This document shows, piece by piece, positions 20,364 to 37,815 of a stretch of 64,000 nt of DNA. The DNA lies in NCBI RefSeq assembly GCF_016595235.1, contig NZ_JAENHL010000004.1:462343-526342 (forward strand), written 5' to 3'. The translations under genes and the position numbers were made by a program. A model generated the notes under the pieces. It was not told the DNA's origin, ran no database searches, and saw only the letters and a list, made by a program, of their open reading frames with translations. Position 1 is the stretch's first letter. Every line of letters begins with the position of its first letter. Source of the DNA: Taklimakanibacter albus (GTDB taxonomy: Bacteria > Pseudomonadota > Alphaproteobacteria > Rhizobiales > Aestuariivirgaceae).

Positions 20364-20438
20364 GTAAGTCTCCTCTTCCATGCCGGGAGAGATGAGGGTG
20401 ATTGCCTCCGCCGCACCAGCGCCTTATCGTCCCCGCCT

Positions 20439-21356
20439 GTGAGCCCACGTCACACCCTGACAACCCCCAGATTGCCGCCACTCGAAGCGGTCCGGATGTT
20501 CGAGACCGTCGTTCGTCTCGGCTCGACGGTCGCCGCGGCGCACGAGCTGGGTCTCACCCATGGCGCGGTGAGCCGGCGTGTGCGGGCGCTCGAGGATAAC
20601 TTGGGCGCGGCGCTCCTGTCGCGCGGGCGCGGCGGCCGGCTGGTGCCGACCGAAACCGGTGCGCGCTTTGCCGAGGCTGCAAATCATGCCTTCGCCCTCA
20701 TCGCCGAAGCGGCGCAATCGGCCGGACGCGGCTCAGCGCGGCGCAAGGTCGTGCGCATCAACACCACGGCCTCTTTCGCGTCTCTATGGCTGATCCCGCG
20801 CCTCAAGCGCTTCCGCGCCCGCCATCCGGCTTTCGAGGCCTGGATATCGGAGAGCCAGTCGCTGATCGAGCCCGGCGCTCACTCTGCTATCGACGTCGCG
20901 ATCAGGTCGGGCAATGGCCGGTGGCCTGGCGTCAAGGCCGAGAAGCTGATGGATGATGTCCTGATTGCGATTGCCGCGCCCTCGATCAAGCAGCGTTTGC
21001 GCAAGCCGGCCGATCTGGCGCGGGTCACGCTGTTGCATGACGAGGATCCCGCCATTTCCTGGTTGGATTTCACCGACAGGCTGGGCCTCGGAAGGCCGGA
21101 CTGGGCGACGAGCGGTCCGCGCCTCGCCTCCACCTTGCTGCTGATTCAAGCGGCCCTGGCCGGTGACGGCGTCGCGTTGGTCCCGGAGCGGCTTGCTCAG
21201 ACGCATCTCGCCAAGGCCGATCTGATCACGCCTTTCACGGTGAAACCGGCCCAACCGCTGACACATTGGCTGGTGCGGCCGCAACGGGCCCTGTCCTCAC
21301 CGGCCATCCGTGCTTTCACCACGTGGCTGCGCGCCGAGGCTACAAACAAGACTTAG
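20439..21356 (+). CDS. LysR-family transcriptional regulator (GcvA-like)
   Basis: The 305-residue protein has the N-terminal winged helix (RLPPLEAVRMFETVVRLGS, then HELGLTHGAVSRRVRALEDNLG) and a LysR substrate-binding domain. The start is a GTG at 20439; a TTG at 20472 is also possible, and the frame stays open far upstream only because it runs antisense to the FMN reductase gene. It probably binds the 75-base divergent gap and controls the reductase. Confidence 0.9.
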   Translation: MSPRHTLTTPRLPPLEAVRMFETVVRLGSTVAAAHELGLTHGAVSRRVRALEDNLGAALLSRGRGGRLVPTETGARFAEAANHAFALIAEAAQSAGRGSARRKVVRINTTASFASLWLIPRLKRFRARHPAFEAWISESQSLIEPGAHSAIDVAIRSGNGRWPGVKAEKLMDDVLIAIAAPSIKQRLRKPADLARVTLLHDEDPAISWLDFTDRLGLGRPDWATSGPRLASTLLLIQAALAGDGVALVPERLAQTHLAKADLITPFTVKPAQPLTHWLVRPQRALSSPAIRAFTTWLRAEATNKT

Positions 21357-21382
21357 TGCGAAACGAGATCGCCTGATTAACA

Positions 21383-21498
21383 ACCCTCACCCTGAGGTGC
21401 CCGGCGCAGCCGGGCCTCGAAGGGTTGGCAAGCGGCACGACCTCTGTCCCTGGATCATGCTTCGAGGCTCGCAGGCGCTCGCACCTCAGCATGAGGGT
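21383..21498. repeat. 116-bp palindromic repeat with terminal inverted repeats
   Basis: ACCCTCACCCTGAGGTGC at the left end is answered by GCACCTCAGCATGAGGGT at the right end, with an inner CCCGG-CGCAG-CCGGG hairpin. It fills the gap between the LysR gene and ligA. Similar CCCTCACCCTGAGGTGC units are, from memory, abundant in Hyphomicrobiales genomes. Confidence 0.75.
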
Positions 21499-21504
21499 AA
21501 GTGA

Positions 21505-23697
<2,193 letters not shown>

Positions 23698-23720
23698 TCA
23701 AGACCCTGATCCTGTCAGGA

Positions 23721-24326
23721 TCAATTCTCCGGACCGCCGACGATCTGGCGCGCCGTCGCCTCGATGAGCTTGCGCACCCGCTCCGCTTCTTCGGCGGTCC
23801 AGGGGCCACGGCGCATATGGAGCGACTGCTTCAGCGTCCTGATCGCCTCGCGCACCGATTCCGGCGTCGAATGCATGGCGAAGGCCTGAGCGGCGAGATC
23901 CATGCGCGCCTGTATGCCTTTGAGGGCGACGCTGTTCTCTTCCAGGAACTGCCGGCCCGTTTCGGTCACCTGATAGAGCTTCTTGGTGCCTTCCCGCGCT
24001 TCCGCAACGACATAGTCCTGCTCTTCGAGCAGCGTGAGGGTCGGATAGACAGCACCCGGGCTCGGCGCGTAATTGCCGCCGAATTTCTCCTCGATGGCGC
24101 GGATGAGCTCATAGCCGTGCCGCGGCTTCTCGGCGATCAGCGCCAGGAGCACGAGCCTGAGATCGCCGTGACCGAACATGCGCGACCCCCGGCCGCCGAA
24201 GAAGCCGCCGCGCCCAAAACCTTCATCGTCGTCGCCAGGGCGCCTGCCCCGGCCCCAGCGCCCGCCAGGGGCGCAGTCGTGATGCCGGTCGTGCCGGCCC
24301 CGATGTTCATGATGACGTCCAAACAT
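23721..24326 (-). CDS. PadR-family transcriptional regulator with Gly/Arg/His-rich N-terminus
   Basis: The 201-residue protein begins with about 45 residues rich in Gly, Arg, His and Asp, then the PadR winged helix (LVLLALIAEKPRHGYELIRAIEEKFGG and SPGAVYPTLTLLEEQDYV) and a coiled C-terminal dimer helix. The His-rich N-terminus could bind metal, a guess. GAAAGGT precedes the ATG at 24326. A nested palindrome centred 44 bases upstream is a likely autoregulatory operator. No transporter target gene is adjacent. Confidence 0.9.
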   Translation of the reverse strand: MFGRHHEHRGRHDRHHDCAPGGRWGRGRRPGDDDEGFGRGGFFGGRGSRMFGHGDLRLVLLALIAEKPRHGYELIRAIEEKFGGNYAPSPGAVYPTLTLLEEQDYVVAEAREGTKKLYQVTETGRQFLEENSVALKGIQARMDLAAQAFAMHSTPESVREAIRTLKQSLHMRRGPWTAEEAERVRKLIEATARQIVGGPEN

Positions 24327-24346
24327 GAGATATACCTTTCGATAGT

Positions 24347-24392
24347 TTGTAAGACTGATAATCAAGATATATCTTAAGAGTCATTCTTACAA
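24347..24392. promoter_or_regulatory. 46-bp nested palindrome upstream of padR (putative operator)
   Basis: AAGATATATCTT (24364-24375) and the outer pair TTGTAAGA (24347-24354) / TCTTACAA (24385-24392) share the same centre, 24369.5. Eighteen of 23 paired positions match. PadR proteins bind such AT-rich dyads, so autoregulation is likely. Confidence 0.65.
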
Positions 24393-24510
24393 GTCCTGAA
24401 CCGCAAAAATTCACCGCGCCCCTCTTGGGGAACGGAGCCAAATCATTGTTATTTCGATATTTTTTAGAAGAAAGAGTCGTTAAATTCAGCCAAACTCGAC
24501 GCCAATAACA

Positions 24511-25527
24511 CTATTTCGGAACTGGCCGGCCTGCCTCGTCGAACAGATGGTATTCCTGGGCCTTGGGGGCGAGCGCGATTTCGGCGCCAGCGGCAAAGAC
24601 CGACTTGCCGGGCTGGCGGACGACGACCGGCGCTTCGGCGCCGATATCGGCATAGATGAACGTGTCGGCGCCGAGATTCTCCGAATAGACGACCTTGCCC
24701 GACCAGACGCCGCCTGCACTGACGATGTCGAGATGCTCGGCCCTGACGCCCACCGTATGGGCCTTGAATTTCTCGGCGTGCCGGCCGGTGAAGAAATTCA
24801 TCCGCGGCGAGCCGATGAAGCCCGCCACGAATTGCGACTGCGGGCGCTCATAGAGTTCGAGCGGCGTCCCCACCTGCTCCACTCTGCCGTCCTTCAGCAC
24901 AACGATGCGCTGGGCCATGGTCATCGCCTCGACCTGGTCATGCGTCACATAGATCATGGTCGTGTTGGGAAGCTGGAGCTTGAGCTGGGCGATCTCCATG
25001 CGCATGCGCACCCTGAGCGCCGCATCGAGATTGGACAATGGCTCGTCGAACAGGAACACCTTGGGGTCGCGCACGATGGCGCGGCCGATGGCGACACGCT
25101 GGCGCTGGCCGCCGGAAAGCTGCGCCGGCAGGCGGTCGAGATAGGGCGTGAGCTGCAGCTTCTCCGCCGCCGCCTCCACTTTGCGCCTGATCTCGTCCTT
25201 GGCCAGACCCTGCATCTTCAACGAGAAGGCCATGTTGCCGAACACATCCATATGCGGATAGAGCGCATAATTCTGGAACACCATGGCGATGCCGCGCTGC
25301 GCCGGCTCGACATCGTCGATGACCTGGCCGTCGATCTCGATCGAGCCGGAGCTCGCCGCCTCGAGCCCCGAGATGCAGCGCAGCAAGGTCGACTTGCCGC
25401 AGCCCGACGGGCCGACGAAAACCACGAACTCGCCCGTGCGGATATCGAGATTGATGTCCTTCAGCACGTCGACCGCGCCGAAATGCTTGTGGAGTTTGCT
25501 GATCTTGAGATTGGACATGTTTCTCAT
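24511..25527 (-). CDS. ABC transporter ATP-binding protein, CUT1/MalK-UgpC type
   Basis: The 338-residue ATPase has Walker A (GPSGCGKST), LSGGQRQR, Walker B ([13 protein letters not shown]) and a C-terminal TOBE domain, the MalK/UgpC/MsmK form that powers CUT1 importers. The ATG at 25527 overlaps the amidohydrolase stop as ATGA. It is last in a seven-gene operon with two permeases, a binding lipoprotein, an amidohydrolase and two SAHase-like proteins. The operon context argues for a nucleoside-like or other non-sugar substrate despite CUT1 ancestry, but this is inference. Confidence 0.93.
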
Positions 25528-26801
25528 CCCATCTGCTTGCGACTGTCATGCACGATGTGGCCTTGCGCGATGGTGAGGACGCATTGCCCCTCCCCTTGCT
25601 CGACCAATGCGCGCTCGACATTTCCGTCCGCCACGTCGATGGCGAAAAATGCGAGATCGGCCGGCCCGCCGGCGACGAGTGCGCCATACCCCTTCTCCGC
25701 CATGCCGAGCGCCCGGGCGCCGCCGCGTGTCGCCGCCTGCATCACGCGTCGCCACAGATCGTTTTCGCGATACCCCTGATCATGTGCGATCCGGGCCAGG
25801 GCCTTCACATCCGCCATCAGGTCGAGCGACGGCGTCGAGGCCAGTGAATCGGTGCCGACCGCGATGTCATGGCCTTCCGCGAGATAGGCCGCGACCGGCG
25901 CTTCGGCGAGGCCGATCACCGCATTGGAGCGCGGACAGAGCGCCACGCGTGTATTGCGCTCGCGCAGGAGATCGCGCTGGCATCTGTCGAAATAGACGCC
26001 ATGGGCGATATGCGTGCATTCGCCGAGCAGTCCCACGCTGTCGGCATAGGCCGCCGTCTTGAGGCCCGAGCCCTTCTGCTGCACCAGGTGATACTCATCG
26101 CGCAGATCGCCATAGATGAACAGGACCGCCGGATCACCGGTGAGATAGAACGCCTCTTCGAGCGCCGATTCCCCCAGATGCGTATGGAGCCGCAGATCGC
26201 GTGACCGGGCGAGCTCGACCAGGTCGCCAACGACCGAAGGGTCGAGATTATAGGGCGCGTGCGGCGAGATGCCGGTGGCGATCGTCGCCCTGTCATCGAG
26301 CCAGTTGATCAGTTCCGCGCGTCCGCCATTCGCCCAGGAGCGCGTCGTCTCGGCGATGACCTCGAGATATTCGATGCCGCTCGCCTGCGCCGCGGCGATG
26401 GCGCCGCGCGCTTCATCGCTGGTGATGATCTCCGAGAATACCGTCGTCCCGCTGGCCAGACCGAGCTTGGCACCGCGCGCTGCCGCCTTGCCCCATTCCG
26501 AGGCGTCGCGGTCAGTATGATAATGCGCCTCGAAAGCGACGCTCCAATCCTCGAAGCCGCGATACTGTCCGCGCCCCAGCGCGTCGAAGCCGGTATATTG
26601 CAGATGCGTATGGGCGTTGACGAGACCGGGCGTGATGACGCCTTTGGTCCAGTCGATCTTCTCATCGCGCAGATGGCCCGGCAGCTGCGCCGCAGGGCCG
26701 ACAAAGGCAATGCGGCCCGCTTCGATTGCCACCACCGCATCACGCAAAGGCGCGGAAGCGACCGGAACAACCCAGTCGGCGCCATAGATCTTACTTACCA
26801 C
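25524..26801 (-). CDS. metal-dependent amidohydrolase, adenosine-type deaminase (SAH/MTA/aminofutalosine deaminase-like)
   Basis: The 425-residue protein is a TRZ/ATZ-like amidohydrolase. It has metal ligands in LVNAHTHL, the HTHLGES strand, an AHG-containing strand and GTDSLAS. Enzymes with this set deaminate the 6-amino group of 5'-substituted adenosines such as S-adenosylhomocysteine, methylthioadenosine or aminofutalosine, or other ring amines. I chose a GTG at 26801 with GGAG six bases upstream; a TTG at 26813 is possible. It overlaps the upstream permease gene by 11 bases and the ATPase by 4. With two SAHase-like genes in the operon, an SAH-like substrate is the leading guess. Confidence 0.85.
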
Positions 26802-27618
26802 TGCCGGCTCCAAATCCAGCGGCGAGCGAGCGCTGCGCCACCATGAACACCAGGAGCACCGGAATGAGCGACACGAGCGCGGCCGCGGCCTGGCCTTGTA
26901 GATTGACCTCCTCGCGCGTCGACAGCGTCGTTGCCGCGAGGGTGAGCGTATAAACCTGCGGATTGCCTTGCAGGAGCGTCGCCGCCATCAGGAGGTCGCC
27001 GAAGGTCCACACGAAGACGAGCGCCACGACCGAAGCGAGCGCTGGGCGCGACATCGGAATGGCGATGTACCAGAAGATCTTGAGGACGCGCGCACCGTCG
27101 AGGGCGGCGGCTTCGAGCAGCTCCGTCGTCAGCGCCTGGCGGAAGAAAGTGTGGATGAGATAGATCGCGAAAGGCAGGCTCGCCACCCCGGCGATGATGC
27201 CGGCGACCACGATATTGTTCACCAGCCGCGCATTCGCCAGCATCACGAAGACCGGGATCAGCCAGGCGACCATCGGAATGGCGTAGCTGGCGACCAGCAG
27301 CACATTGAGCCCGCGCGCCACGCGACCCTGATGAATACGGAACCAGAAGGCGCCGGCAAGCGCCGTCGAGGCGCAGACGATGCAGGCGATCACCGCCACG
27401 ATCAGTGAAACGACAAGCGCCTGGCCGAGACCGGCTTGCGTCCACGCCCCCACGATATTGTCGAGGGTGAAGGAGCGCGGCAGCCCGCCGGGGCTCATCA
27501 TGTAGTCCTGGCGCGTGCGGATCGCGGTGCCGATGAGGAACAGCAGCGGCAGGATGAAGGCAAGGCTGATCAGCGCCATGATGCCGGTGCGGAACTTGCT
27601 CGTGCTGCCCGCTTTCAT
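26791..27618 (-). CDS. ABC transporter permease, CUT1/MalG type
   Basis: The 275-residue inner-membrane protein has six helices and the permease EAA loop (ELLEAAALDGARVLKIFWYIAIPMSRPAL), which docks on the ATPase. The ATG at 27618 overlaps the first permease stop as ATGA. An in-frame extension upstream to 28221 is Arg-rich shadow sequence and is rejected. It works with the neighbouring permease, lipoprotein and ATPase as one importer. Confidence 0.93.
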   Translation of the reverse strand: MKAGSTSKFRTGIMALISLAFILPLLFLIGTAIRTRQDYMMSPGGLPRSFTLDNIVGAWTQAGLGQALVVSLIVAVIACIVCASTALAGAFWFRIHQGRVARGLNVLLVASYAIPMVAWLIPVFVMLANARLVNNIVVAGIIAGVASLPFAIYLIHTFFRQALTTELLEAAALDGARVLKIFWYIAIPMSRPALASVVALVFVWTFGDLLMAATLLQGNPQVYTLTLAATTLSTREEVNLQGQAAAALVSLIPVLLVFMVAQRSLAAGFGAGSGK

Positions 27619-28523
27619 GTGCGCCTCCGCTTGAAGCAGGTCTCGATCAGCGCCCGCGCCCCGTAGCCCAGCGCCGGAAACAGGACGATGGCGCCCACCA
27701 GCGCGATCGACTGCGCCGCAGCCGTCCCGTAGAAGCCGAAGCGCATGAATTGCTGATAGATGAAGAAATCCATGGTGGCGCTGGAGAGGCCCGGCCCGCC
27801 GCCGGTCAGCACATAGATCCAGCCGAACATGAAGAGGAAGATGCAGACGAGCTGGAACATCGCCCACAGGAACACCGTGCCGCGCACGCTCGGCACCGCG
27901 ATATGCCAGAACTCGCTCCAGAAGCGGGCGCCGTCGAGCCGCGCCGCCTCGAAGATATTCTGCGGCACCGCCGCGAAGGCGGCCGAGAAGATGAGGACGC
28001 CGGTGCCGAAGCTCGCCCACAGAACGAGGAAGATGACGACCGGCTTCACATACGTAATGTCGGTGAGCCAGGGATGGGCGAGAAAGCCTAGGCCGCTGGT
28101 TTCCAGCACCGCATTCACCGGCCCATCGGTGGCGAGCAGCGTGCGGAAGACGAGCCCGACAATGGCGGGCGACATCACCGCGGGCAGGAAATAGATGGAA
28201 CGGAAGAGACCTGGCCGCCACACGCCTTCGCGCAGTGCGAAGGCGACGACCAGCGGCGCGATCACCCAGAGCGGCAGTCCCAGCAGATAGAAGAGCTGGT
28301 TGCCGATGACCTGCCAGAATTCCGGGTCGGCGAGCAGATGCTCGTAGTTCTTGAAACCGATGAAGGTCGAGACGCTGCCCGGCTGCCAGTCATAGAGCGA
28401 GCGGTAGGCGACATAGACCAAGGGCAGGAAGAGGACGAGCGTTTCGAGCACGATCGCCGGAACGAGAAGCACAAGCCCCCCATCGAGCGCACGCCGCCAT
28501 CCCCTCCTCTTCACTGCCTGCAT
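27615..28523 (-). CDS. ABC transporter permease, CUT1/MalF type
   Basis: The 302-residue protein has six hydrophobic helices and the EAA loop (NIFEAARLDGARFWSEFWHIAVPSV). It lacks the large periplasmic loop of E. coli MalF, as usual for UgpA/LacF-type subunits. It begins six bases after the binding-protein gene and overlaps the second permease by 4 bases, so the subunits are coexpressed. Confidence 0.93.
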   Translation of the reverse strand: MQAVKRRGWRRALDGGLVLLVPAIVLETLVLFLPLVYVAYRSLYDWQPGSVSTFIGFKNYEHLLADPEFWQVIGNQLFYLLGLPLWVIAPLVVAFALREGVWRPGLFRSIYFLPAVMSPAIVGLVFRTLLATDGPVNAVLETSGLGFLAHPWLTDITYVKPVVIFLVLWASFGTGVLIFSAAFAAVPQNIFEAARLDGARFWSEFWHIAVPSVRGTVFLWAMFQLVCIFLFMFGWIYVLTGGGPGLSSATMDFFIYQQFMRFGFYGTAAAQSIALVGAIVLFPALGYGARALIETCFKRRRT

Positions 28524-28529
28524 GGTGGA

Positions 28530-29843
28530 TCAGTTGGTCTTGGCGAAGGCCGAGTTTGCGCTCTCCATGAACTGCTGCACCGTCATCGTGCCGCCCATGA
28601 GCGGCGCCGCATTGCGCTCCATCACCGCCAGGACCGGCAGCGGGAAGGCGGCGAAGCCGGTATGGTTCTCGGGGTTGGCGAGCAGCGCCAGATAGGCGGC
28701 CTGCATGTCGTTCTGCGCCTGCGCCTGGAAGCCGGAAATATTGGACGGCACGCCGATCGCGGCCCAAAGCTTCTCCTGCGATTCCTTGCTGGCGATGAAG
28801 TTGACGAAGGCGGCGGAGGCTTCCGGGCTCTTCGTCCATTTGGTGACGCCCCAGCCGGCTTCGGCGCCAGCATCGACAAGATTCTTGTGCTTCGACGCCG
28901 GCACTTGCGGCAGCGCCATCGCCATCGTTTCCGGCTGGTCCTTCACCAGCTGCATGGCGCGGCTCAGCGCACCATTGACCAGCATGGCCGCGCCGCCCGT
29001 GGCATATTGCACATTCGTATCGTCGAACATGTTGCGCCCCAGCGCCTTGTCGTCGCCGAAGCAGCCGGCGGTCTTCATGTCCATGATGTAGTTGACGGCA
29101 TCGGTGAACAGCTTGTCGTCGAGCTTGAGCTCGCCCTTGACCCATTTGGCGAGCGTCGGCTTGTCCATCATCTGGCTGGTGATCATGTAGAGATAGGTCT
29201 CGAACAGATATCCGTCCTTCCAGCCCGACGCCATCGGCTGGATGCCCTTCTCGGTCAGCGCCTTGCAGGTGGCGAGCATCGAATCCCAGCTGGCGAGCGC
29301 CGTCGCCGGATCGATCCCGGCCTTGGCGAAGATGGCGCGGTTGACCAGCATCACATAGCCATAGGAACCGGTCGGCAGGATGTAGAGATTGCCGTCGGCC
29401 GAATAATTCTCGTCCAGATATTTGATCTCTTTGCGCAAGGCCGGATCGATCGCGTCCTGCAGCGGATAGAGACCATTCTTGTAGCTGTAGGCCTGTGCCG
29501 AGCCATACATGGTGATGACATCGGGCCCGCTCTGCGCCACGACCGAATTGCGCACCTGGTCGAAATAGGTGCCATACGGCATGTCGATGATCTTCACCGT
29601 GATCTGCGGATGGGCCTTCTGGAAGTCGGCGGCGATCGCGTTATAGGCCTCCACCCCCTTCTCATAATTGCCGGGCAGGAACGACCACACGGTCAGCTCC
29701 GCCTTGGCCTCGGGGATCGGGCCGGTCTTGAGCTTGTCGCTCGCCGCCTGTTCCTCGCCACACGCCGCGAGCGCGAACAATGCCGTGGCCAGCGCCACGC
29801 CTGAAACGCCCTTGCGCAACCACTTCGAAACACCCATCGTCAT
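28530..29843 (-). CDS. extracellular solute-binding lipoprotein, family 1 (CUT1)
   Basis: The 437-residue precursor has a lipoprotein signal ending LFALAAC, so Cys28 should be acylated and the protein tethered to the inner membrane facing the periplasm. The mature part has the two-lobe SBP_bac_1 fold (LTVWSFLPGNYEKGVEAYNAIAADF near the start). The ATG at 29843 has GGAG nine bases upstream and starts two bases after the upstream stop. It fixes the importer's substrate, which the sequence does not reveal. Confidence 0.9.
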   Translation of the reverse strand: MTMGVSKWLRKGVSGVALATALFALAACGEEQAASDKLKTGPIPEAKAELTVWSFLPGNYEKGVEAYNAIAADFQKAHPQITVKIIDMPYGTYFDQVRNSVVAQSGPDVITMYGSAQAYSYKNGLYPLQDAIDPALRKEIKYLDENYSADGNLYILPTGSYGYVMLVNRAIFAKAGIDPATALASWDSMLATCKALTEKGIQPMASGWKDGYLFETYLYMITSQMMDKPTLAKWVKGELKLDDKLFTDAVNYIMDMKTAGCFGDDKALGRNMFDDTNVQYATGGAAMLVNGALSRAMQLVKDQPETMAMALPQVPASKHKNLVDAGAEAGWGVTKWTKSPEASAAFVNFIASKESQEKLWAAIGVPSNISGFQAQAQNDMQAAYLALLANPENHTGFAAFPLPVLAVMERNAAPLMGGTMTVQQFMESANSAFAKTN

Positions 29844-29845
29844 AA

Positions 29846-31069
29846 TCACCAGCTCCGTATTGCCGTTGCCAATTTTTCTGTCATCGGTTCGATCACGCCG
29901 CCTTCATGGCCGAGCCTGATCAATGCCACGTCACGTTCCGCCGCGTCCGAAATCGGATAGAGACCAGGCGCCTTGGGCGCCGCATCGCCCGCCAGCTCCT
30001 CGACCGCGATCGCCTGCAGCGCCAGCGACAGGTCCATCACCTCGATCGGGTTGCCTTCGCCGCCCGAGCAGTTGATGCAATGTCCATCGACCATCACCCG
30101 GATACGGGCGCCGCCGGGGAGCGTGTATTCCACGACGCCCTGACGCACATCCTTGTCAGCCTTGAGCGAGCGCAGATACTCCATCGGCAGCTCGAAATCA
30201 CCGCCGCCCGCGGTGCACAGGAAGGCGCCATCGGGCAATTTCCGCACATGGTCTTCCGTTATCACGCCCGCGATGCCGGTCGAGGCGAAGACGACTTCCG
30301 TATTCGGCGCGGCGAGCGCCACGCTCTTGACCGCATAGCCGTCATGGATCGCCTGCAGCGCCTTCACCGGATCGAGCTCGGCGACCGTTATGCGGGCGCC
30401 CAGAGCCGCGGCATGAATGGCGACGCCTTTGCCCACCCAGCCATAGCCGATGACCAGTACCTCGCGTCCCGCGAGCTGGAGATTCGTCATGTCGAGAAAA
30501 GCCATCACGCAGGATTGCCCGGTCCCATAGACATTGTCGAAGAGATATTTCATGCGCGAATCATTGACCGCGATGACGGGAATGCGCAACGCGCCCTCCT
30601 CATGCATGGCGCGCAGCGGACGTATGCCGCTGGTGGTCTCTTCCGCAGCGCCTATCATACCTGCAACAAGATCGGGGAATTCGCGATGCGCCAACCGGAT
30701 GAGGCTGGCGCCGTCATCGATCAGGATATCAGGCTTCGTCTTCAGGAAATCGCGGGCCAGCTCGAGATCACGCGCCGCCGTGGCGCCGGCCTCGGCGAAA
30801 ACCGCGAGACCTTGCGCCCTGAGCGCATGGACGACCCGCGCCTCGGTCGAGCTGCCACCACAATAGACGCTGACCTGGGCGCCCGCCTGTTTCAGCGCCA
30901 GAGCGAGATTGGCGGTCTTGGGCTCGAGCACCAGCGAGACGCCGACCTTCTTGCCATGCAGACGCCCGCCGGCGGCGAGACGCGCCGCAATCGTGTTGAG
31001 CACCGGCATGCCGCGCCCGGCCCAGGCGATGCGCTCCGCCCCTTCTTGAGCGAGATTGGCTGTCGTCAC
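29846..31069 (-). CDS. S-adenosylhomocysteine hydrolase-like protein, diverged paralogue A
   Basis: The 407-residue protein has the AdoHcyase fold of the short, archaeal/Thermotoga length. Kept features: DDG (118-120), EETTSG (143-148), NDS..K..FDN with Lys174, Asp178, Asn179, and the NAD motif GYGWVGKG (208-215). The adenine-pocket motif HxTxE reads V47-L-E49-P-K51. His residues present in canonical enzymes at NIGHFD and GHP are replaced (TAGGGD, GNP), and the C-terminal KPDHYRY NAD-clasp is absent. It may be an altered-specificity or non-catalytic partner of paralogue B. The GTG at 31069 overlaps B's stop (GTGA), with AAGGA upstream. Confidence 0.85.
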   Translation of the reverse strand: MTTANLAQEGAERIAWAGRGMPVLNTIAARLAAGGRLHGKKVGVSLVLEPKTANLALALKQAGAQVSVYCGGSSTEARVVHALRAQGLAVFAEAGATAARDLELARDFLKTKPDILIDDGASLIRLAHREFPDLVAGMIGAAEETTSGIRPLRAMHEEGALRIPVIAVNDSRMKYLFDNVYGTGQSCVMAFLDMTNLQLAGREVLVIGYGWVGKGVAIHAAALGARITVAELDPVKALQAIHDGYAVKSVALAAPNTEVVFASTGIAGVITEDHVRKLPDGAFLCTAGGGDFELPMEYLRSLKADKDVRQGVVEYTLPGGARIRVMVDGHCINCSGGEGNPIEVMDLSLALQAIAVEELAGDAAPKAPGLYPISDAAERDVALIRLGHEGGVIEPMTEKLATAIRSW

Positions 31070-32316
31070 TTGGGCATTCCTTCTATCCACTGGGCGATAT
31101 CGTCTTCCTGCTCGGAGCGCGCCTCGCTCAAGGAGATCCCCATGCTTTTGAGCTTCGCCGCTGCGATCGCGTCGTCGAGCGCCTTCGGAATGATATGGAC
31201 ACCGGGTGCAAGCTTGGCGGAGACGAGGTGATGGGCGCCCAAGCCCTGCACCGCAAAGGTGAGGTCCATGATTTCGACCGGATGGCCGCTGCCGCCGGCG
31301 ATATTGACCAGCGCGCCGCCCGAAAGGACATGCAGGTCGCGCTCCTGCACGCGGAAGGTGGTAATGCCGGGCCGCGTCTCTTTGCGGTCATTGGTCAGGC
31401 CCGCCAGCACGTCGACATCGATCTCGAGATCATGATGGCCGGCATTGGCGAGGAGGACATCGTGATCGAGATGGGCGAATTCGCTCATGCCGACGGCGCG
31501 CATGCCGCCCGTCGCCGCGATCACCATGGTGGCCCCCGGCAGCATGTCGGCGGCGGTGCCGACCTTGTGGCCGTCCATATGGGCTTCCAGCGCCCGCACC
31601 GGATCGGTCTCGACGACACGCGTATGGGCGCCCATCGCCTTGGCATAAAGGGCGATGCCACGGCCGACATAACCATAGCCGATCACCGCTACGCGGGCGC
31701 CGGCGATCTGCCGGTTGGTGAGGCGCAAAATCGCCTGCAGCGTCGTTTGCCCCGTCGCATAGCGGTTGTCGAAAAGATGTTTGCAGCGCGCGTCATTGGC
31801 AGTGAGCGCGGCGAAAGGCAGCTTGCCCGCCGCGCGCAACGCATGGAGCCGCGCCGTGCCGGTCGTCGTCTCTTCGGAGACGCCTTTGAGATTGGCATAG
31901 AGCTTGGGCCGGAACTTGCCCATCCGCAGGGTGAGCTCGGCGCCGTCATCGATGATATAATGCGGGGCCCAATCGGCGGCGGCGAGAAGCTCGCGCTCCC
32001 AGCTCGCATGATCGCCATCGGGCGCCGAGACGACGGTGAGGCCGCGGGCCTTCAGGGCCTCGACCACCGGCCCTCTCGTTGTGCGCGGATTGCTGCCCGC
32101 CACGACCACTTCAGCGCCGGCATCGGCCAGCACGGTGGCGAGAAAGGCGGTCTTGGCCTCGAGATGCACGACGACGGCGATGCGGGCGCCCTTGAGCGCC
32201 CCGTCTGATAGAGTCTCGCGCACGAAGCCGTTGAGCACCGGCGAATGGCGGCTCACCCATTCGATCTGGGCCTGCCCGATCTCGACATCACTTTTGTCGG
32301 TCGCCACCTGCGTCAT
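31066..32316 (-). CDS. S-adenosylhomocysteine hydrolase-like protein, paralogue B (candidate SIH hydrolase type)
   Basis: The 416-residue protein is SAHase-like and first in the operon. Catalytic-type residues remain: DDG (123-125), SEETTTG (147-153), Lys179, Asp183, Asn184, NAD motif GYGYVGRG (213-220), NAGHHD (His294/295) and GHP (His345). The adenine-contact motif reads H51-L-E53-A-K55, that is HxExK in place of HxTxE. From memory, archaeal S-inosyl-homocysteine hydrolases carry HxExK. Hydrolysis of an inosyl-thioether is therefore a reasonable proposal. It lacks the C-terminal DHYRY. It diverges from lacI over a LacI-type operator. Confidence 0.87.
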   Translation of the reverse strand: MTQVATDKSDVEIGQAQIEWVSRHSPVLNGFVRETLSDGALKGARIAVVVHLEAKTAFLATVLADAGAEVVVAGSNPRTTRGPVVEALKARGLTVVSAPDGDHASWERELLAAADWAPHYIIDDGAELTLRMGKFRPKLYANLKGVSEETTTGTARLHALRAAGKLPFAALTANDARCKHLFDNRYATGQTTLQAILRLTNRQIAGARVAVIGYGYVGRGIALYAKAMGAHTRVVETDPVRALEAHMDGHKVGTAADMLPGATMVIAATGGMRAVGMSEFAHLDHDVLLANAGHHDLEIDVDVLAGLTNDRKETRPGITTFRVQERDLHVLSGGALVNIAGGSGHPVEIMDLTFAVQGLGAHHLVSAKLAPGVHIIPKALDDAIAAAKLKSMGISLSEARSEQEDDIAQWIEGMPK

Positions 32317-32376
32317 ACCCCTCGATTGCCCCCGAATCCGCCTTTGCCCCCGCCGAAGTGACGGTTTATGGCTTAT

Positions 32377-32388
32377 CTAAGCGCTTAG
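32377..32388. promoter_or_regulatory. LacI-type operator between the transport operon and lacI
   Basis: CTAAGCGCTTAG is a perfect 12-bp palindrome with the central CG typical of LacI/GalR sites. It lies 61 bases before the SAHase-like B start and 69 bases before lacI, so one bound dimer could control both. Confidence 0.7.
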
Positions 32389-32456
32389 CTTCTGCTATTG
32401 TCAATGTATCTTTGAAATGTCCGGGAGCGCTATGCACAAGCAGGAGGCGATTAGCC

Positions 32457-33440
32457 ATGGCTGATAGAGCCCGCCGTCCTACCCTTGCCGATGTCGCCCG
32501 GCTCGCCGGTACGTCGACCGCGGTGGTGAGCTATGTGCTCAATGACGGCCCCCGCGCCGTGGCGCCCCAGACCAAGGCCAAGGTCGAGCAGGCCATCGCC
32601 GAGCTCGGCTATCGGCGCAATCCGCTCGCCAGCGCTTTGATGGCCGGCCGCTCCAATCTCGTCGGGCTCCTGGTGCCCGATTCCTCCAACGCCTTCTTCA
32701 GCGAGCTGGCACGCGAATTCGAGCGCGAGGGCAAAGCGCGGGGCTTCCTCACCCTCATCGGCAACACGGCTTACGACCCGGCGGTCGAGCTCGATTATGA
32801 GCGCGCTTTCGCCGATCTGCGCCCGCGCGGCATTTTCGTCACCAGCATCACCGGCGATGCCGAAAGCCTCGATGGCTGCCCGCGCATCTATGTCCATTCG
32901 GCACCCGCCGGCGCCTCCGATCCGTGTGTGCTTTTCGACGATGTCGGCGGCGGCATCGCCGCAACCCGTCATCTGATCGGGCAAGGTTATGAGGACATCC
33001 ATTGCATCGCCGGGCCCGATGATTTCGGCCCTTCCGGCAAACGTGAGCGCGGCTGGCAAAAGGCCATGAGCGAAGCCGGTCTCACGACGGAAGGCCGGCT
33101 CCATCGTGTGTCCTTCGAAAGGCTGGGCGCCGAAAACGCGCTGCGCCCCTTGCTGGCGAAGCCTGGACGTCCCCGCGCGATCTTCGCCACCACCGACGAG
33201 CAGGCACTGGCCGCCCTGCGCGCCGCCGCCGAAGCACGGCTCACCGTGCCGAAGGATATCGCGATCGTCGGCTTCGACGGCATCCGCGAGGCGCTTAATG
33301 GCAGCAGCCGCCTCACCACTTTCGCGCTGCCGCTCGCCGAGCTGGCGCGGCGCGCCTTCGAGGTGCTCGACGGCTGGAATGCGGCCGACAATCCCTCGCA
33401 TATCATTGCGGGGGCCCTGCAGCGCGGCGAGACGTCCTGA
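32457..33440 (+). CDS. LacI-family transcriptional regulator
   Basis: The 327-residue protein opens with the LacI HTH and hinge (TLADVARLAGTSTAVVSYVLNDGPR and KVEQAIAELGYRRNPLASAL), followed by a periplasmic-binding-protein-like ligand domain (LVGLLVPDSSNAFFSELAREF). AGGAGG ends 9 bases before the ATG at 32457; the frame is open farther up without such a site. It very likely represses the divergent SAHase-like/ABC operon through the palindrome at 32377. Its stop codon directly abuts the stop of the convergent nucleoside hydrolase gene. Confidence 0.93.
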   Translation: MADRARRPTLADVARLAGTSTAVVSYVLNDGPRAVAPQTKAKVEQAIAELGYRRNPLASALMAGRSNLVGLLVPDSSNAFFSELAREFEREGKARGFLTLIGNTAYDPAVELDYERAFADLRPRGIFVTSITGDAESLDGCPRIYVHSAPAGASDPCVLFDDVGGGIAATRHLIGQGYEDIHCIAGPDDFGPSGKRERGWQKAMSEAGLTTEGRLHRVSFERLGAENALRPLLAKPGRPRAIFATTDEQALAALRAAAEARLTVPKDIAIVGFDGIREALNGSSRLTTFALPLAELARRAFEVLDGWNAADNPSHIIAGALQRGETS

Positions 33441-34352
33441 TCAGCCGAGCGTGGCGATCCCGTCGAGAAACACTTCGACCACGCGATCATAGTCGGCGGC
33501 GACGCAAACGCGGGTCTTCTGGCCGTTGCGCGGCTTGAGCACCGTCTGGCCGAGCTTCTCGCCATCGAGCCCCACTTCGACATCACCTTCTTCGATGCGG
33601 AAGAGCTCGGGCCGGAGTGCGGCGATGACGGTCGCAGGGTCATGCAGGCTGCAGCCTTTGGCGCCGCGCCCCAGATAGACGTCGATATAGAAATCCGAGA
33701 TCGCCGCGAGAAACCCGCCGAATTTCGGCGCCCGCCTGGCGAGTGCGGCGAAATTCTCCTTCGTCACCGAGGTTCGGTCGGTGACATCGAGACCGACCAG
33801 AAGGATCTCGGCGCCGGAATTGAACACGATCTGCGCCGCATCGGGATCGTTATAGATATTCGCTTCGGCGAAGGGCGTCACATTTCCGCGCGCATGGACG
33901 ACGCCGCCCATGATGACGATCCGCGCGACATTCTTCGCAAACTCGGGATCGCGCTCGATCGCCGCGGCGATATTGGTCAACGGCCCGATCGGGAACACCA
34001 CCAATTCGCCCTTGTGTCGCTTGGCCTGGTCGATGAGGAAATCGACCGCCGGACTGTCGACCGCGCGGCCTTTGGGAGCTGGCGCCGGCAAGGCGCCGAA
34101 GCCCTGCTCGCCATGAATCCAGTGCACCGGCTCCCAGTGCCGTCCGCGCAACGGCTTGGGCAATCCCTGCGCCACCGGGATCGGACGGTCGAGCATCTCG
34201 ACCAGATGCAGCGCATTACGCGTCCCCATCTCGACCGGAATGTTCCCATAGACGGAGGTCAGGCCGATGAGCTCGATCTCCGGACAGGACGCCGCGTAAA
34301 AAATCGCCATCGCATCGTCGACGCCCGGATCCGTATCGATAATCGCTTTCAT
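33441..34352 (-). CDS. inosine-uridine-type nucleoside hydrolase
   Basis: The 303-residue protein has the family calcium-binding N-terminus IIDTDPGVDDAM, FPIGPLTNIAAA, MGG, EANIYNDPDAA and a later LHDPATV, all typical IUNH elements. It should split ribonucleosides to base and ribose in the cytoplasm. The ATG at 34352 is preferred; upstream in-frame ATG codons exist at 34367 and 34364. It may be the last step of the neighbouring system, taking a nucleoside such as inosine released by the SAHase-like proteins. It is on its own transcript beyond lacI. Confidence 0.92.
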   Translation of the reverse strand: MKAIIDTDPGVDDAMAIFYAASCPEIELIGLTSVYGNIPVEMGTRNALHLVEMLDRPIPVAQGLPKPLRGRHWEPVHWIHGEQGFGALPAPAPKGRAVDSPAVDFLIDQAKRHKGELVVFPIGPLTNIAAAIERDPEFAKNVARIVIMGGVVHARGNVTPFAEANIYNDPDAAQIVFNSGAEILLVGLDVTDRTSVTKENFAALARRAPKFGGFLAAISDFYIDVYLGRGAKGCSLHDPATVIAALRPELFRIEEGDVEVGLDGEKLGQTVLKPRNGQKTRVCVAADYDRVVEVFLDGIATLG

Positions 34353-34450
34353 TTCAAGCCCCATCACTGCTCAGGGCTTCATACATGACCTTTCCACGAG
34401 CACAAGATACTCCCTTGGCTTCGCCCCGCCCGCCGGACATAGTGCCCTCC

Positions 34451-35302
34451 ATGCCCTTGCGCCCCAGCGTCTACGCCTTCGATTTCGGCGGCTTCAGGAT
34501 CGCCACCCTGCTCGATGCGACGGATATCCGTGGTGGACTTGCCGAGAGCTTCGCCTTGGGTGAGCCGGAAGACCGCGTGCGTGCGCTGGCGGTGGCGAAT
34601 TTCATCGATCCCGACCGCTTCGAGCATCCCTTCATTCCGGTCTTCGTCGACACGGGCAAGGTGAAGCTCCTGTTCGACACTGGTCTCGGTGAACCCGAAA
34701 GCGCCCTTCTCCACGGCCTCAGCCAGCTGGGTGTGGCGGCGGAGGAGATCGACATCGTGGTCCTCACCCATGGCCATCCCGATCACATTGGCGGCCTGAT
34801 GACGGATGGCGCGCCGACCTTCTCGCGCGCGCGTTACGTGTTTGGCGCGGCGGCATTCGAGTTCTGGCGGCGCGGCGAAAATGTGCGGGCGGCGCGCCGC
34901 GCCAATCGCGAGCTGTTCCTGCGTAATTGCGCGCCCCTCGCCGACCGCGCGACCTTCGTCAATCCGGGCGACGAGATCCTACCCGGCATTACGGCGGTCG
35001 ACGCCGCCGGTCATTCACCGGGCCTCCTCGCCTGGCGGATAGAAAGTGCGGACAGACGCCTGTTGATCTGGTCGGACACGTGCCTCCATTACATCGTGTC
35101 CTTGCAGCGGCCGGACTGGCGGGCGAATGTCGATGACGACAAGGAAGAGGCGGCGCGCGCGCGTCGGCGTCTCCTCACCTCGGCAGCCGAAGAGCGGGTC
35201 GTCATCGCCGGCTATCACATGCCTTTTCCCGGCCTCGGCTTTGTCGAGCGCACAGGCGACACTTTCCGCTGGGTGCCGGTCAGCTACCAGCTGAATCTGT
35301 GA
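34451..35302 (+). CDS. metallo-beta-lactamase-fold hydrolase
   Basis: The 283-residue protein has THGHPDHIGG, the HxHxDH zinc signature, a later DAAGHSPG strand with the third His, WSDTCLHY with the bridging Asp and a C-terminal AGYHMPFPG His. It resembles lactonase- or glyoxalase II-like enzymes; the substrate is unknown. I prefer the ATG at 34451, which leaves 98 bases to the divergent nucleoside hydrolase; an ATG at 34385 is also in frame. No clear ribosome site decides. Confidence 0.85.
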   Translation: MPLRPSVYAFDFGGFRIATLLDATDIRGGLAESFALGEPEDRVRALAVANFIDPDRFEHPFIPVFVDTGKVKLLFDTGLGEPESALLHGLSQLGVAAEEIDIVVLTHGHPDHIGGLMTDGAPTFSRARYVFGAAAFEFWRRGENVRAARRANRELFLRNCAPLADRATFVNPGDEILPGITAVDAAGHSPGLLAWRIESADRRLLIWSDTCLHYIVSLQRPDWRANVDDDKEEAARARRRLLTSAAEERVVIAGYHMPFPGLGFVERTGDTFRWVPVSYQLNL

Positions 35303-35311
35303 CTCTCATCA

Positions 35312-35343
35312 AAATCCGCCCGCCCGGCAAGCCGAACGGGCGG
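35312..35343 (-). terminator. terminator of the small conserved gene
   Basis: CCGCCCG and CGGGCGG pair around a 14-base loop, and on the minus strand the stem is followed by ATTTTGATG. It lies between two convergent stops. Confidence 0.55.
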
Positions 35344-35355
35344 CGATCGCGATCG

Positions 35356-35778
35356 TCAGCCGATATAGGCCGGCACGATCACGATCTCTTCCTTCTTCGC
35401 CGGCTCGCCGACAGGCGGCAGTTGCAGCACCGTGGCGCGCTGTCCCTTGCGCAGATGCGTCACCAGCACGATCTTGCCGTCGGGAAACTCGAGCGCATCG
35501 TGAAAGGCATGCGGTTGATCCATATTGATCTGGGTGAACCGGGCGACTTTGCCGTCAAGTTCCGCATACTCCACACCGAGGCCGCCGAGCGTGGCGTGAT
35601 TGCTTTCCACGCCATTCTCGAAAGCAAGTTCCGTACCCGGACGAAGACACGCGGCCACATCGGCGTGATCGACGCCACAGAAGCCATGCGTAGCCGAGCC
35701 GTCGAAGGCAGACGTTACCAGCTTGTCACCGACTTTCGCGGGACGAGAGGCGACGTGATGCAGACTATAATCGCACAT
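35356..35778 (-). CDS. conserved hypothetical protein, starts MCDYSLHHVASRPAK
   Basis: I recall this N-terminus from uncharacterised Hyphomicrobiales proteins but know no function. The 140-residue product is soluble, with no signal or membrane helix. It has Cys in CDYS, CGVD and CLRP and several His, so metal binding is conceivable. GAGGAG nine bases before the ATG at 35778 fixes the start. A palindrome (35862-35886) lies about 85 bases upstream. Confidence 0.75.
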   Translation of the reverse strand: MCDYSLHHVASRPAKVGDKLVTSAFDGSATHGFCGVDHADVAACLRPGTELAFENGVESNHATLGGLGVEYAELDGKVARFTQINMDQPHAFHDALEFPDGKIVLVTHLRKGQRATVLQLPPVGEPAKKEEIVIVPAYIG

Positions 35779-35861
35779 CAGGGAATCTCCTCTACTGTGA
35801 ACAGCCAGGATGGTTGTCCTGATCAAAGGCAGCACATCAAGGCGGCCATCCTGTGTCCGCA

Positions 35862-35886
35862 ACATTACGGCTCAAGGTCGTAATGT
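35862..35886. promoter_or_regulatory. ACATTACG-N9-CGTAATGT inverted repeat
   Basis: A perfect 8-bp inverted repeat sits in the gap between recN's 3' end and the small conserved gene, upstream of the latter. It could be an operator. Nothing else is visible in 35779-36008. Confidence 0.4.
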
Positions 35887-36008
35887 CTCCGTAGCGCTTC
35901 GCGCAAATCATGCTGCTAATTTGGGAAGCATTGAAGATATGGGTTGAGACGGCGCTTTGTTCCAGCGCGATCACGGCAATTCAGACATGTGATCTCGAAA
36001 TGTTTTGA

Positions 36009-37679
36009 TCAGGAACTGGCGCGGAGCAGCTGGTCAGCCTGGGCGCGGGCTTCTTCCGTCACTTTGGCGCCGGACAGCATGCGGGCGATTTCCTCGCGCC
36101 GGCTCGCGGCACTCAGATCCTGTACGCGCGTCACCATGCGTTTCTTGCCGACCTCTTCCATCTTGCTGATCAGCATGTGCTGGCCGGCCAGTGCGGCGAC
36201 CTGCGGCGAATGCGTCACCGCCAGAACCTGGAGTCCCTTGGCCAGGCGCGCCAGCCTGACGCCGATTGCATCGGCGACCGCGCCACCGACGCCGGTATCG
36301 ATTTCGTCGAAGACCAAAGTGGGCGCCGATCCTTTGGCGGCCAGGATGACCTTGAGCGCCAGCATGAAGCGCGCCAGCTCGCCGCCCGAGGCGACTTTCA
36401 TGAGGGGCGATAGAGGCGTGCCCGGATTGGCGGCGACGAGGAACTCCACCTTGTCGAAACCATGGCTCCCGCCCCGCCCGCGATCGGCTTCGACGCGCGT
36501 CTCGAAACGGGCTTTATCGAGCTTCAAAGGCGCCAGTTCCTTCACCACCGCATCGTCGAGCTTGCGCGCCACCTTCTTGCGCTTGTCGCTCAGTTTCGAC
36601 GCCGCCTCGTCGAAGGCATCGCCATGCGCCCTATAGGCTGCCTCGAGCCGCGCCAGCTCGACGCCGCCATCGGCGATCGCCTGGAGGTCGCCTTCCATCT
36701 TCTCGCGGACAGCCGCAAGAGCATCGACCGTACATTTGTATTTGCGCGCCGCGGCGCGTAGCGCGAAGAGCCGTTCCTCCGACTCTTCCAGTTCACGCGG
36801 ATTGAAGGCGAAGGAGCGCAGGGCTTCCGCCGAGGCGCGATGCGCCTCCCCCATTTCCTGCAGCACCCGGTCGAGTGCCTCACAGATGCGGTCGAGCCGG
36901 CCCTGCGCCTGGTCCTTGCGCCGTTCGAGCTTGCGCAGCGCCGCATTGAGCCGCGCCTCGACGGCGCCGTCGCCATTGAGCGCGTCTTCGGCATCGCTCA
37001 GCGCGCTGGCGAACTGCTCGGCATTCATCATCAGCTGACGCTTCTCGGCAAGCCGCGTTTCCTCTTCCGGCTGCGGATCGAGCTTGCGCAGCTCATCCGC
37101 CGCATGGGTCAGATACTCGCGCTCGGCTTCCGAGCGGGCGAGCCGCGCTTTGTGTTCGGCAAGCTGTGTTTCCGCCGCGCTCAGCGTCTCCCACAGATCG
37201 CGCACCTTCTCCGCTTCGGCATCGAGCCCGCCAAAGGCGTCGAGCAGCCGCCGGTGATTGGCGGAATTGACCAGCGCCCGGTCGTCATGCTGGCCATGAA
37301 TCTCGGTCAGCGTGCCGGCGATCTGGCGCAGCAGATTGAGACTGACCGGCTGGTCGTTGACGCTGGCGCGGCTCGGACCGTCGGCATTCTGGATGCGGCG
37401 GATGACGAGTTCGCCCTCGGCCTCGATATCCTGCGCCGCGAGAAGGTCGAAGGCGGCATGCGCCTTGGGCAGCGAGAAGGCAGCGGTGACGACGCCTTTC
37501 TCGGCGCCGTTGCGCACCAGGCTGCTGTCGCCGCGGGCGCCCAGCGCCAGCCCCAGCGCGTCGAGGAGGATGGATTTGCCCGCCCCCGTCTCACCGGTGA
37601 GCACGGTAAGGCCGCGCTCGAGCGTGAGGTCGAGCTTTTCGATGAGGACGATGTCGCGGATGGAAAGCGCCGTCAGCAT
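36009..37679 (-). CDS. recN: DNA repair protein RecN
   Basis: RecN is an SMC-like ATPase that helps repair double-strand breaks. The 556-residue protein has the N-terminal Walker A (GETGAGKSILLDAL), QHDDRALVN, a long coiled-coil middle (about residues 160-370) and the C-terminal signature and Walker B region (ASGGELARFMLALKVIL and PTLVFDEIDTGVGG). It follows bamD on the same strand across a palindromic repeat, the usual rhizobial bamD-recN order. I see no obvious LexA box. Confidence 0.95.
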   Translation of the reverse strand: MLTALSIRDIVLIEKLDLTLERGLTVLTGETGAGKSILLDALGLALGARGDSSLVRNGAEKGVVTAAFSLPKAHAAFDLLAAQDIEAEGELVIRRIQNADGPSRASVNDQPVSLNLLRQIAGTLTEIHGQHDDRALVNSANHRRLLDAFGGLDAEAEKVRDLWETLSAAETQLAEHKARLARSEAEREYLTHAADELRKLDPQPEEETRLAEKRQLMMNAEQFASALSDAEDALNGDGAVEARLNAALRKLERRKDQAQGRLDRICEALDRVLQEMGEAHRASAEALRSFAFNPRELEESEERLFALRAAARKYKCTVDALAAVREKMEGDLQAIADGGVELARLEAAYRAHGDAFDEAASKLSDKRKKVARKLDDAVVKELAPLKLDKARFETRVEADRGRGGSHGFDKVEFLVAANPGTPLSPLMKVASGGELARFMLALKVILAAKGSAPTLVFDEIDTGVGGAVADAIGVRLARLAKGLQVLAVTHSPQVAALAGQHMLISKMEEVGKKRMVTRVQDLSAASRREEIARMLSGAKVTEEARAQADQLLRASS

Positions 37680-37716
37680 GGCGCCCTTATAGCTGAGTCT
37701 CAGAGAATGAAGTAGA

Positions 37717-37815
37717 GCATCGGCCCGAGAAGTGCGCGCGGTTCTCGGGCAAGCCGATGCGCAAAATCAAAGAGATAGAGCGCCGTAGCGAGTGCAACGA
37801 AGCGCCCGGCGCTCT
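37717..37815 (+). repeat. mosaic palindrome copy B (two palindromes)
   Basis: First palindrome 37717-37760: GCATCGGC...GCCGATGC around CCGAGAAGTG...CGGTTCTCGG. Second palindrome 37777-37815: AGAGCGCCG...CGGCGCTCT. The second overlaps two bases of the bamD stop codon (37814-37816). It fills the recN-bamD gap. Confidence 0.85.

Follow-up and report, generated by a model that had tools for sequence, protein, structure and literature searches.

Why should a bacterium that has a canonical S-adenosylhomocysteine hydrolase (SAHase, or AhcY) carry two further homologues of this enzyme next to an importer? The question is raised by a locus of Taklimakanibacter albus (assembly GCF_016595235.1, contig NZ_JAENHL010000004.1) studied within a stretch of 64,000 nucleotides, called the window in what follows. 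A run of seven minus-strand genes at 24511-32316 encodes, in this order, two SAHase homologues, here named SahA and SahB, a binding lipoprotein, permease 1, permease 2, an amidohydrolase (AmidoH) and an ATPase. As a previous reading of the sequence alone had described, gene calls and family matches place the seven genes divergent from lacI. We interpret the operon, with moderate confidence, as a catabolic module, acquired horizontally, for an imported derivative of a purine nucleoside that bears a 5' substituent, most simply a thioether resembling S-adenosylhomocysteine (SAH). It would point to bacteria that take up and degrade SAH-like nucleosides or others modified at 5'. What is new here is probably the presence of two atypical SAHase relatives in an importer-linked nucleoside breakdown module that recurs in distant bacteria; no description of such an operon or module was found in the open-access literature searched.

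Active-site residues of SahA and SahB

SahA (31066-32316, minus strand; 416 amino acids; PF05221/PF00670; NF004010 at 618 bits, cut-off 512) shows the motif HxExK in 10/10 aligned sequences and, in alignment with solved SAHases, keeps His55, Asp131, Glu156, Lys186, Asp190, Asn191, His301 and His353 in all ten (human numbering, here and below). According to the accessible portion of PMC10978960, the HxExK enzymes that have been tested prefer S-inosylhomocysteine (SIH) and the HxTxE(Q) enzymes prefer SAH, and in some genomes the presence of a deaminase and the substrate preference are mismatched. The sequence-only reading had a SAHase-like enzyme act after deamination, a step that the motif of SahA supports. 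Compared with canonical AhcY, SahA has His55, Asp131, Lys186, Asp190, Asn191 and His301 in every sequence but not HxTxE(Q). With the SIH hydrolases and HxExK SAHases of Methanocaldococcus, Pyrococcus and Thermotoga it has in common the short type, the ExK motif, the NAD site and the tested catalytic residues, but its gate is Gly-His-His instead of Gly-His-Phe (the residue at Phe302 is His in 9/10 and Ser in 1/10). Moreover, those enzymes are placed in S-adenosylmethionine (SAM) recycling in the portion of PMC10978960 consulted, whereas the genes described here are linked to an importer and to LacI and are extra to AhcY.

SahB (29846-31090, minus strand; 414 amino acids; PF00670/PF05221; NF004005 at 412 bits, cut-off 275), with VxExK in the window, differs from SahA. 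Its residues were counted in 64 sequences, namely 35 earlier rows including the window and the best SAHase-profile match from 29 of the 30 loci L183-L212; L188 has no such match, and L097, with a split gene, was left out. A first count (n = 43) filtered eight rows on the letters EPKT/DPKT, and the count of 64 was made with no filter. The position of His55 is occupied by Val, Phe, Ile, Leu or Thr and that of Asn84 by a gap in 64/64; His301 is replaced by Gly (63) or Ala (1) and His353 by Asn (63) or Asp (1). Meanwhile Lys59, Lys186 and Asp190 are kept in 64/64, and Glu57, Asp131, Glu156 and Asn191 in 63/64, the sole exception being each time L187 (genome G490). The nucleobase motif reads [E/D]xK in all sequences and ExK in 63/64, in each case without the His of HxExK that SahA and the SIH hydrolases have.

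In the part of PMC4647836 that could be consulted, the 5'-OH or the attacking water is held in SAHase by His55, Asp131 and His301, the 3'-OH by Lys186 and Thr157, and the 2'-OH by Glu156 and Asp190; the Gly-His-Phe gate is described there as completely conserved. Given that Glu156, Lys186, Asp190 and Asn191 are kept and the histidines lost, SahB would retain the oxidation side of the reaction with the hydration side gone. Relative to canonical AhcY, the gate and His55 are lacking in 64/64 and Asp131, Lys186, Asp190 and Asn191 occur together in 63/64; relative to the HxExK SAHases all four of His55, Asn84, His301 and His353 are lacking. The view of SahB as an ordinary SAHase or SIH hydrolase is therefore not borne out, and plain SAH or SIH hydrolysis does not explain the protein. 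These genes thus belong to a clade that is annotated automatically as adenosylhomocysteinase and yet is without residues which PMC4647836, in its accessible part, gives as completely conserved.

In a 93-row tree, rooted at its midpoint and with several long branches (two rows were left out and 14 of the later ones added), SahB (35 rows) and SahA (10 rows) each form a separate clade with support 100/100. Branchings common to both clades include L046 with L048, L049 with L050, and the window plus L045 with L037. Such co-inheritance, with largely matching branchings, together with the loss of four 5'-side positions in all 64 sequences, could mean that SahB is a pseudoenzyme, i.e. a non-catalytic or structural partner of a SahA that alone works as an ordinary SIH hydrolase. 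A truncated protein resembling the SAHase NAD domain, adjoining SahB in the two loci L189 and L190, would also suit this idea. We nevertheless consider it quite improbable, since SahA, present within 9 kb of SahB in 9/35 loci, was not found at that distance in the other 26, SahB is the sole PF00670 match in 10 genomes, and seven other tested residues are kept in 63/64 sequences.

The truncated protein of L189 (4271-4945) and L190 (10913-11611) has about 224 amino acids, and its only similarity is to the NAD domain of SAHase (E-values of 8e-9 and 2.5e-8 among 9388 frames; Pfam below cut-off); it is possibly a reduced SahA. A profile search of those 9388 frames, covering L037-L102 and L183-L192 but not L193-L212, found a separate small protein of this kind beside SahB in these two loci only. 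The remaining short SAHase-profile matches were rejected as remnants: they came from the split gene of L097 and from incomplete frames of L101 and L102, with one 34-residue match in L084.

A bolder idea, which we regard as a long shot, is that SahB is an NAD-dependent nucleoside 5'-eliminase that does not add water back. An imported 5'-thio purine nucleoside would then yield a thiol, a 6-oxopurine and a dehydrated keto-pentose and, in relatives, the keto-sugar would pass to a cupin of the Cff1 family. If true, SahB would be the founding member of a new enzyme activity, with LuxS-like chemistry on an intact nucleoside that perhaps gives furanones of the type that mimics autoinducer-2 (AI-2).

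AmidoH and its pairing with SahB

AmidoH (25524-26813, minus strand; PF01979) is predicted to be a deaminase-like enzyme. Indeed, it keeps H55, H57, H173, H200, E203, H228, D279 and S283 of TM0936, the eight metal and catalytic residues tested, in 20/20 rows. The sequence-only reading had likened it more narrowly to DadD, which the contact residues do not bear out. In the column of E84, which we take to be the ribose contact, 1/20 rows has Glu, and R136 and R148, presumably the contacts of the homocysteine carboxylate, are found in 0/20, the alignment being gapped there; two TM0936-like controls from Olegusella and Atopobium keep all three. Furthermore, no NCBIfam cut-off is reached among the 25 matches listed. 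The best models are 8-oxoguanine deaminase (126.7 bits, cut-off 532), a TRZ/ATZ-family model and 5'-deoxyadenosine deaminase; NF012037 scores 66 against 779 and NF004701 97 against 609. The DadD identity was rejected on these two grounds. AmidoH thus belongs to the same superfamily as the DadD/TM0936-type deaminases of methylthioadenosine, SAH and 5'-deoxyadenosine but differs from them in its contacts, in its scores and in its company, as shown below.

The 8-oxoguanine score and the missing ribose contact would also fit a reversed order, in which a guanosine-like (6-oxo) nucleoside is processed first by SahA and SahB and the freed base, of guanine or 8-oxoguanine type, is then deaminated by AmidoH; by inference, ExK would suit the 6-oxo edge of guanine as well. 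We find this order rather unlikely: AmidoH reaches no model cut-off, HxExK is documented for SIH preference and not for guanosine, and the shared reading frames of SahB and AmidoH described next are uninformative on order.

The coupling of a deaminase-type enzyme with a SAHase-like protein is well supported, since the two genes are tightly linked across loci. The locus set comprises 35 fetched SahB loci, 34 from a contig scan and one plasmid, with the window uncounted. AmidoH lies within 9 kb of SahB in 32 of them; the three others are L049, whose contig ends before its place, and L046 and L051, in whose genomes AmidoH is not matched at E 1e-30 either. Of 249 genomes drawn from the Leucobacter family (the family of G079), 42 have AmidoH, 42 have SahB and 41 have both (tables compared by eye). 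In 40 of these 41 the two genes share a contig and strand and lie no more than about 5 kb apart; in G522 they are on two contigs. In four genomes (G612, G550, G662 and G705) SahB and AmidoH form one uninterrupted reading frame of 1054-1210 codons. The protein distances of SahB and AmidoH correlate over 32 loci with r = 0.857, which 0/1000 permutations reach, shared species history not being removed from this value. Among 72,556 plasmid records AmidoH was matched once at E 1e-20, in this operon.

Some further observations concern this pair. In L183-L186 the fused frames include a linker rich in Ala and Ser and carry a long extension at the N terminus. In L187 (6.6-7.9 kb) SahB is decayed, with Asp131 changed to Ser, Glu156 to Asp, Asn191 to Lys and His353 to Asp; its genome, G490, is the only SahB-bearing genome of the 249 with no AmidoH match and offers a natural control for the pairing. 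In Atopobium and Olegusella (L064 and L065, ~7.4-16 kb) a TM0936-like deaminase and an HxExK SAHase form a pair in the vicinity of SahB-AmidoH and of a PAAT importer.

Exchangeable importers

The window has a complete CUT1 importer set, made of a solute-binding lipoprotein with a LAAC lipobox (28530-29849; SBP_bac_8), two permeases (27615-28523 and 26791-27618; both BPD_transp_1) and an ATPase of the MalK/UgpC type with a TOBE domain (24511-25527; NF008653 at 453.6 bits, cut-off 432; PF08402), all on the minus strand. Among the 35 loci, binding proteins within 9 kb of SahB are of the PAAT type in 26 and of the CUT1 type in six, never of both kinds, and no importer was found at that distance in L051, L072 and L076. 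A third kind, an ECF transporter with a riboflavin-type S component, occurs in L189, and L190 shares the parts compared. The window operon is hence one of a wider family of modules among which the importer has been exchanged.

PAAT importers use SBP_bac_3 binding proteins, and of 20 examined all have the Arg and 18 the Asp that contact amino acids. We take these positions to hold an amino-acid ligand by its carboxylate and amino groups, so that their retention hints at a ligand with an amino-acid end. An importer for an SAH-like ligand had been proposed, and many relatives do carry an ABC (ATP-binding cassette) system of amino-acid type, as such a ligand would suggest. The shared SahB-AmidoH frames and the three exchangeable importers make the question of the substrate directly testable.

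In the window, the best-scoring solved chains for the binding protein are by name binders of sugars or oligosaccharides. This match to the CUT1 protein raises the alternative of a purine nucleoside extended or glycosylated at 5' as the true substrate, such as a nucleoside antibiotic or a similar secondary metabolite; SahA and SahB would break its non-thioether 5' bond for feeding or detoxification. The loss of 5'-side residues in SahB would fit a different 5' group, and in two contigs of rumen actinobacteria (L072, 11653-14103; L076, 11748-13312) AmidoH is followed immediately by a GH3 glycosidase. A 2022 JACS study of herbicidin biosynthesis, on atypical C-glycosylation by its title and present in the reference list of a SAHase review (PMC13406329), reportedly involves enzymes that resemble SAHase catalysis at C5'. 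That pathway is biosynthetic, and it would set an example of SAHase homologues whose action is on 5' bonds other than thioethers. We judge a glycosylated substrate somewhat unlikely, however, because the PAAT and ECF importers of relatives do not suggest a sugar conjugate, the window operon has no glycosidase and GH3 genes occur in the two loci only.

Recurrence and probable mobility

Our reading of the operon as a catabolic module draws also on its distribution. The sequence-only reading had proposed a search for adjacent SAHase-like pairs with a CUT1 transporter, and the same arrangement recurs, whole or in part, in other bacteria. Rhizobiales bacterium Y(2018) (L045) has the same gene order at 94-99% identity, and Roseateles sp. 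XES5 (L037) has it at 64-78% identity with a nucleoside hydrolase at the far end as last gene. The record of the latter (NZ_CP084754.1) is labelled UNVERIFIED_ORG, so the host of that full operon is uncertain. A metagenome-assembled genome (MAG) of Pseudomonadales has the seven-gene order with lacI. Partial operons occur in a Microbacteriaceae MAG, which has no matching ATPase in place, and in Leucobacter soli and a Leucobacter MAG, whose contigs end early. This recurrence of gene order exceeds chance. The scan queries were short peptides of the window's SahB, by which remote SahB proteins are missed; several relatives are MAGs, and counts within Leucobacter and its family are non-independent.

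Within the genus of the window SahA and SahB are present in 3/5 genomes. Where the operon stands in the window, G054 has about 125 bp between padR and recN; in G042, recN is the immediate neighbour of ligA. These junctions suggest an insertion. In an order-wide search SahB was matched in 20/397 genomes at E 1e-50, and identities above 37% occurred only in the window's genome (SahB itself, and its SahA at 39%). Taken together, the operon looks like a horizontally acquired, mobile catabolic module rather than methyl-cycle machinery.

Relation to the methyl cycle

The 7.17-Mb source genome (G000) has a canonical long AhcY on another contig (494-codon frame, motif HxTxQ), and SahA and SahB are thus extra copies; the possibility, raised by the sequence-only reading, that the genome has no other SAHase is hereby removed. 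In relatives, SahB is the only match to PF00670, the SAHase NAD domain, in 7/21 and 3/16 genomes (10/37 in all), and LuxS is present in 7/18 genomes or records searched. L. soli and the Leucobacter MAG have LuxS and the CUT1 operon and no AhcY match, while these searches found neither LuxS nor AhcY in the SahB-only genomes G083 and G085. A sole PF00670 match with LuxS in such genomes speaks against a role in the methyl cycle, which was rejected on this ground and on the canonical AhcY. Ordinary SAH recycling by a second methyl-cycle SAHase with a DadD-type deaminase, as the family annotation adenosylhomocysteinase and the HxExK of SahA might suggest, is scarcely credible to us, given in addition the importer, LacI and the patchy occurrence (3/5 genomes of the genus, with G054 lacking the operon at the site). 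These proteins are therefore unsuitable as methyl-cycle markers.

Nucleoside hydrolase and cupin partners

Just beyond the operon lies a nucleoside hydrolase gene (33441-34367, minus strand; IU_nuc_hydro). It had been proposed as the last step of the route and its position is confirmed, but it is convergent with lacI and stands outside the seven-gene run. Moreover, besides the window, such a gene is within 9 kb of SahB in 2/35 loci only, which makes it an optional member.

In contrast, a Cupin_5 gene is within 9 kb of SahB in 25/29 loci of the second set and 6/35 of the first; the two queries were taken from L183 and L203, which match by construction. No Cupin_5 gene was found near the SahB of the window. 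The relative belongs to the family of yeast Cff1p, which is required for the furanone MHF, an AI-2 mimic suspected to be derived from sugar (PMC8092285, accessible in part). Compared with the Cff1p/YML079w cupins as given there, the bacterial gene is regular in PAAT- and ECF-type loci of the Leucobacter family and not in the window, and Glu44 of Cff1p has no certain mapping onto it. As a speculation, a dehydrated keto-pentose from SahB would suit a cupin partner.

Proposed pathway

In the scheme that follows from reading the operon as a module for 5'-substituted purine nucleosides, gene set, linkage, residues, motif, operator and patchy occurrence come from sequence, while each reaction, the substrate, the order and the repression are inferred. 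The importer would take up the nucleoside and AmidoH would remove its 6-amino group to give a hypoxanthine-type derivative. SahA and SahB would read the 6-oxo base through ExK, use bound NAD to oxidise the 3'-OH of the ribose and then eliminate the 5' substituent. Water would next be added by SahA, whose active site is complete, to give inosine; SahB, without the water-side and gate histidines, would perform oxidation and elimination with no normal hydration or with another acceptor. Where present, the nucleoside hydrolase would split inosine into base and ribose, its place being taken in many relatives by the Cff1-family cupin gene. LacI would repress the operon at TCTAAGCGCTTAGA until an inducer appears.

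The route thus keeps the outline given by the sequence-only reading (import, deamination, SAHase-like cleavage and nucleoside hydrolysis) as far as the SahA motif, the SahB-AmidoH linkage and the importers are concerned, and not in the AmidoH contacts and the water-side histidines of SahB. Several points weigh against it. With His55 and His301 lost, SahB is unlikely to hydrolyse SIH normally, and SAH itself may not be a substrate of AmidoH, since the presumed ribose and homocysteine contacts are absent. The operon contains no homocysteine-use gene, and no nucleoside binder is named among the 42 matches listed for the sugar-binder-like protein of the window. Two MAGs, G070 and G075, have SahA and SahB with no AmidoH match at E 1e-30. 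Neither an SAH nor a SAM riboswitch was found: the window gave no match at 20000-38000 with E up to 0.1, and the loci of 16 relatives gave only tRNA and rRNA at gathering thresholds. Finally, when one mismatch is allowed, the genome shows no enrichment of the core of the operator described below, with 2 sites per strand and 6 for the reversed control.

A conserved LacI operator

The regulator gene (plus strand; LacI family) probably starts at 32457 and ends at 33440, the longest open reading frame beginning at 32358; with the ATG at 32457, the sahA-lacI intergenic region has about 140 bp. A palindrome around CTAAGCGCT(T/A)AG is present upstream of sahA in 7/7 lacI-bearing CUT1-type loci (window, L037, L045, L047, L048, L049 and L050), and such conservation of the predicted operator with its regulator supports the LacI control that had been proposed. 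Its 12-letter core CTAAGCGCTTAG (32377-32388) has a single exact copy in the genome. In the sahA direction TTGACA stands just before the palindrome in the window, L045, L037 and L047, and TTGACC in L048, with neither in L049 and L050. The window site is one base off the 14-letter TCTAAGCGCTTAGA, of which sites with up to three mismatches are no more frequent in the window than by chance. The site was not found in L046 and L052, which have no lacI nearby. L189 and L190 have a LacI 58% identical to that of the window and a one-mismatch core CTAACCGCTTAG seen by eye, with none by a stricter pattern search.

Other SAHase-like branches

A third SAHase-like group (L041, L089, L092 and L125) has Asp131 changed to Asn, Asp190 to Glu and His353 to Asn or Asp. 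Its member on a Vibrio nigripulchritudo plasmid (L041, 8085-12158) is accompanied by a nucleoside hydrolase, an adenosine deaminase, a ribokinase and a NupC transporter; others are found in Providencia and a Bacillus, together with Nuc_H_symport, and in one 3.5-kb locus of a Microbacteriaceae MAG, together with a nucleoside hydrolase. This group is another SAHase-like branch tied to nucleoside catabolism, and we count the Vibrio case in favour of a nucleoside-breakdown role of the window operon. In addition, a homologue with Pro at His55, Gly at His301 and His353 kept adjoins a bile acid:sodium symporter on a Rubrobacter radiotolerans plasmid (L038, 8989-10254), and an HxExK homologue lies near a QueT-family ECF transporter on a Natronosalvus halobius plasmid (L040, 5136-10224).

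Gene calls and neighbouring genes

Pfam assigns to the locus PF05221/PF00670 (twice), SBP_bac_8, BPD_transp_1 (twice), Amidohydro_1, ABC_tran, LacI and IU_nuc_hydro. The successive spacings in the run are -25, -4, +6, about -4, -23 and -4 bases, so that the gaps or overlaps of at most 6 bases previously noted hold for four spacings and not for two, where the genes as called overlap by 23-25 bases. SahB is called from GTG and AmidoH from TTG, and their true starts may differ; the start of permease 2 is probably 27618 because the codon at 27621 is CAC. Beyond the nucleoside hydrolase, between padR and recN, the window has at 34385-35865 a metallo-beta-lactamase-fold gene (best NCBIfam match AidB lactonase, below cut-off) and a neighbour that we take to be gGCT. 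Relatives of both are present in G056, which has no operon, and neither is present in G054.

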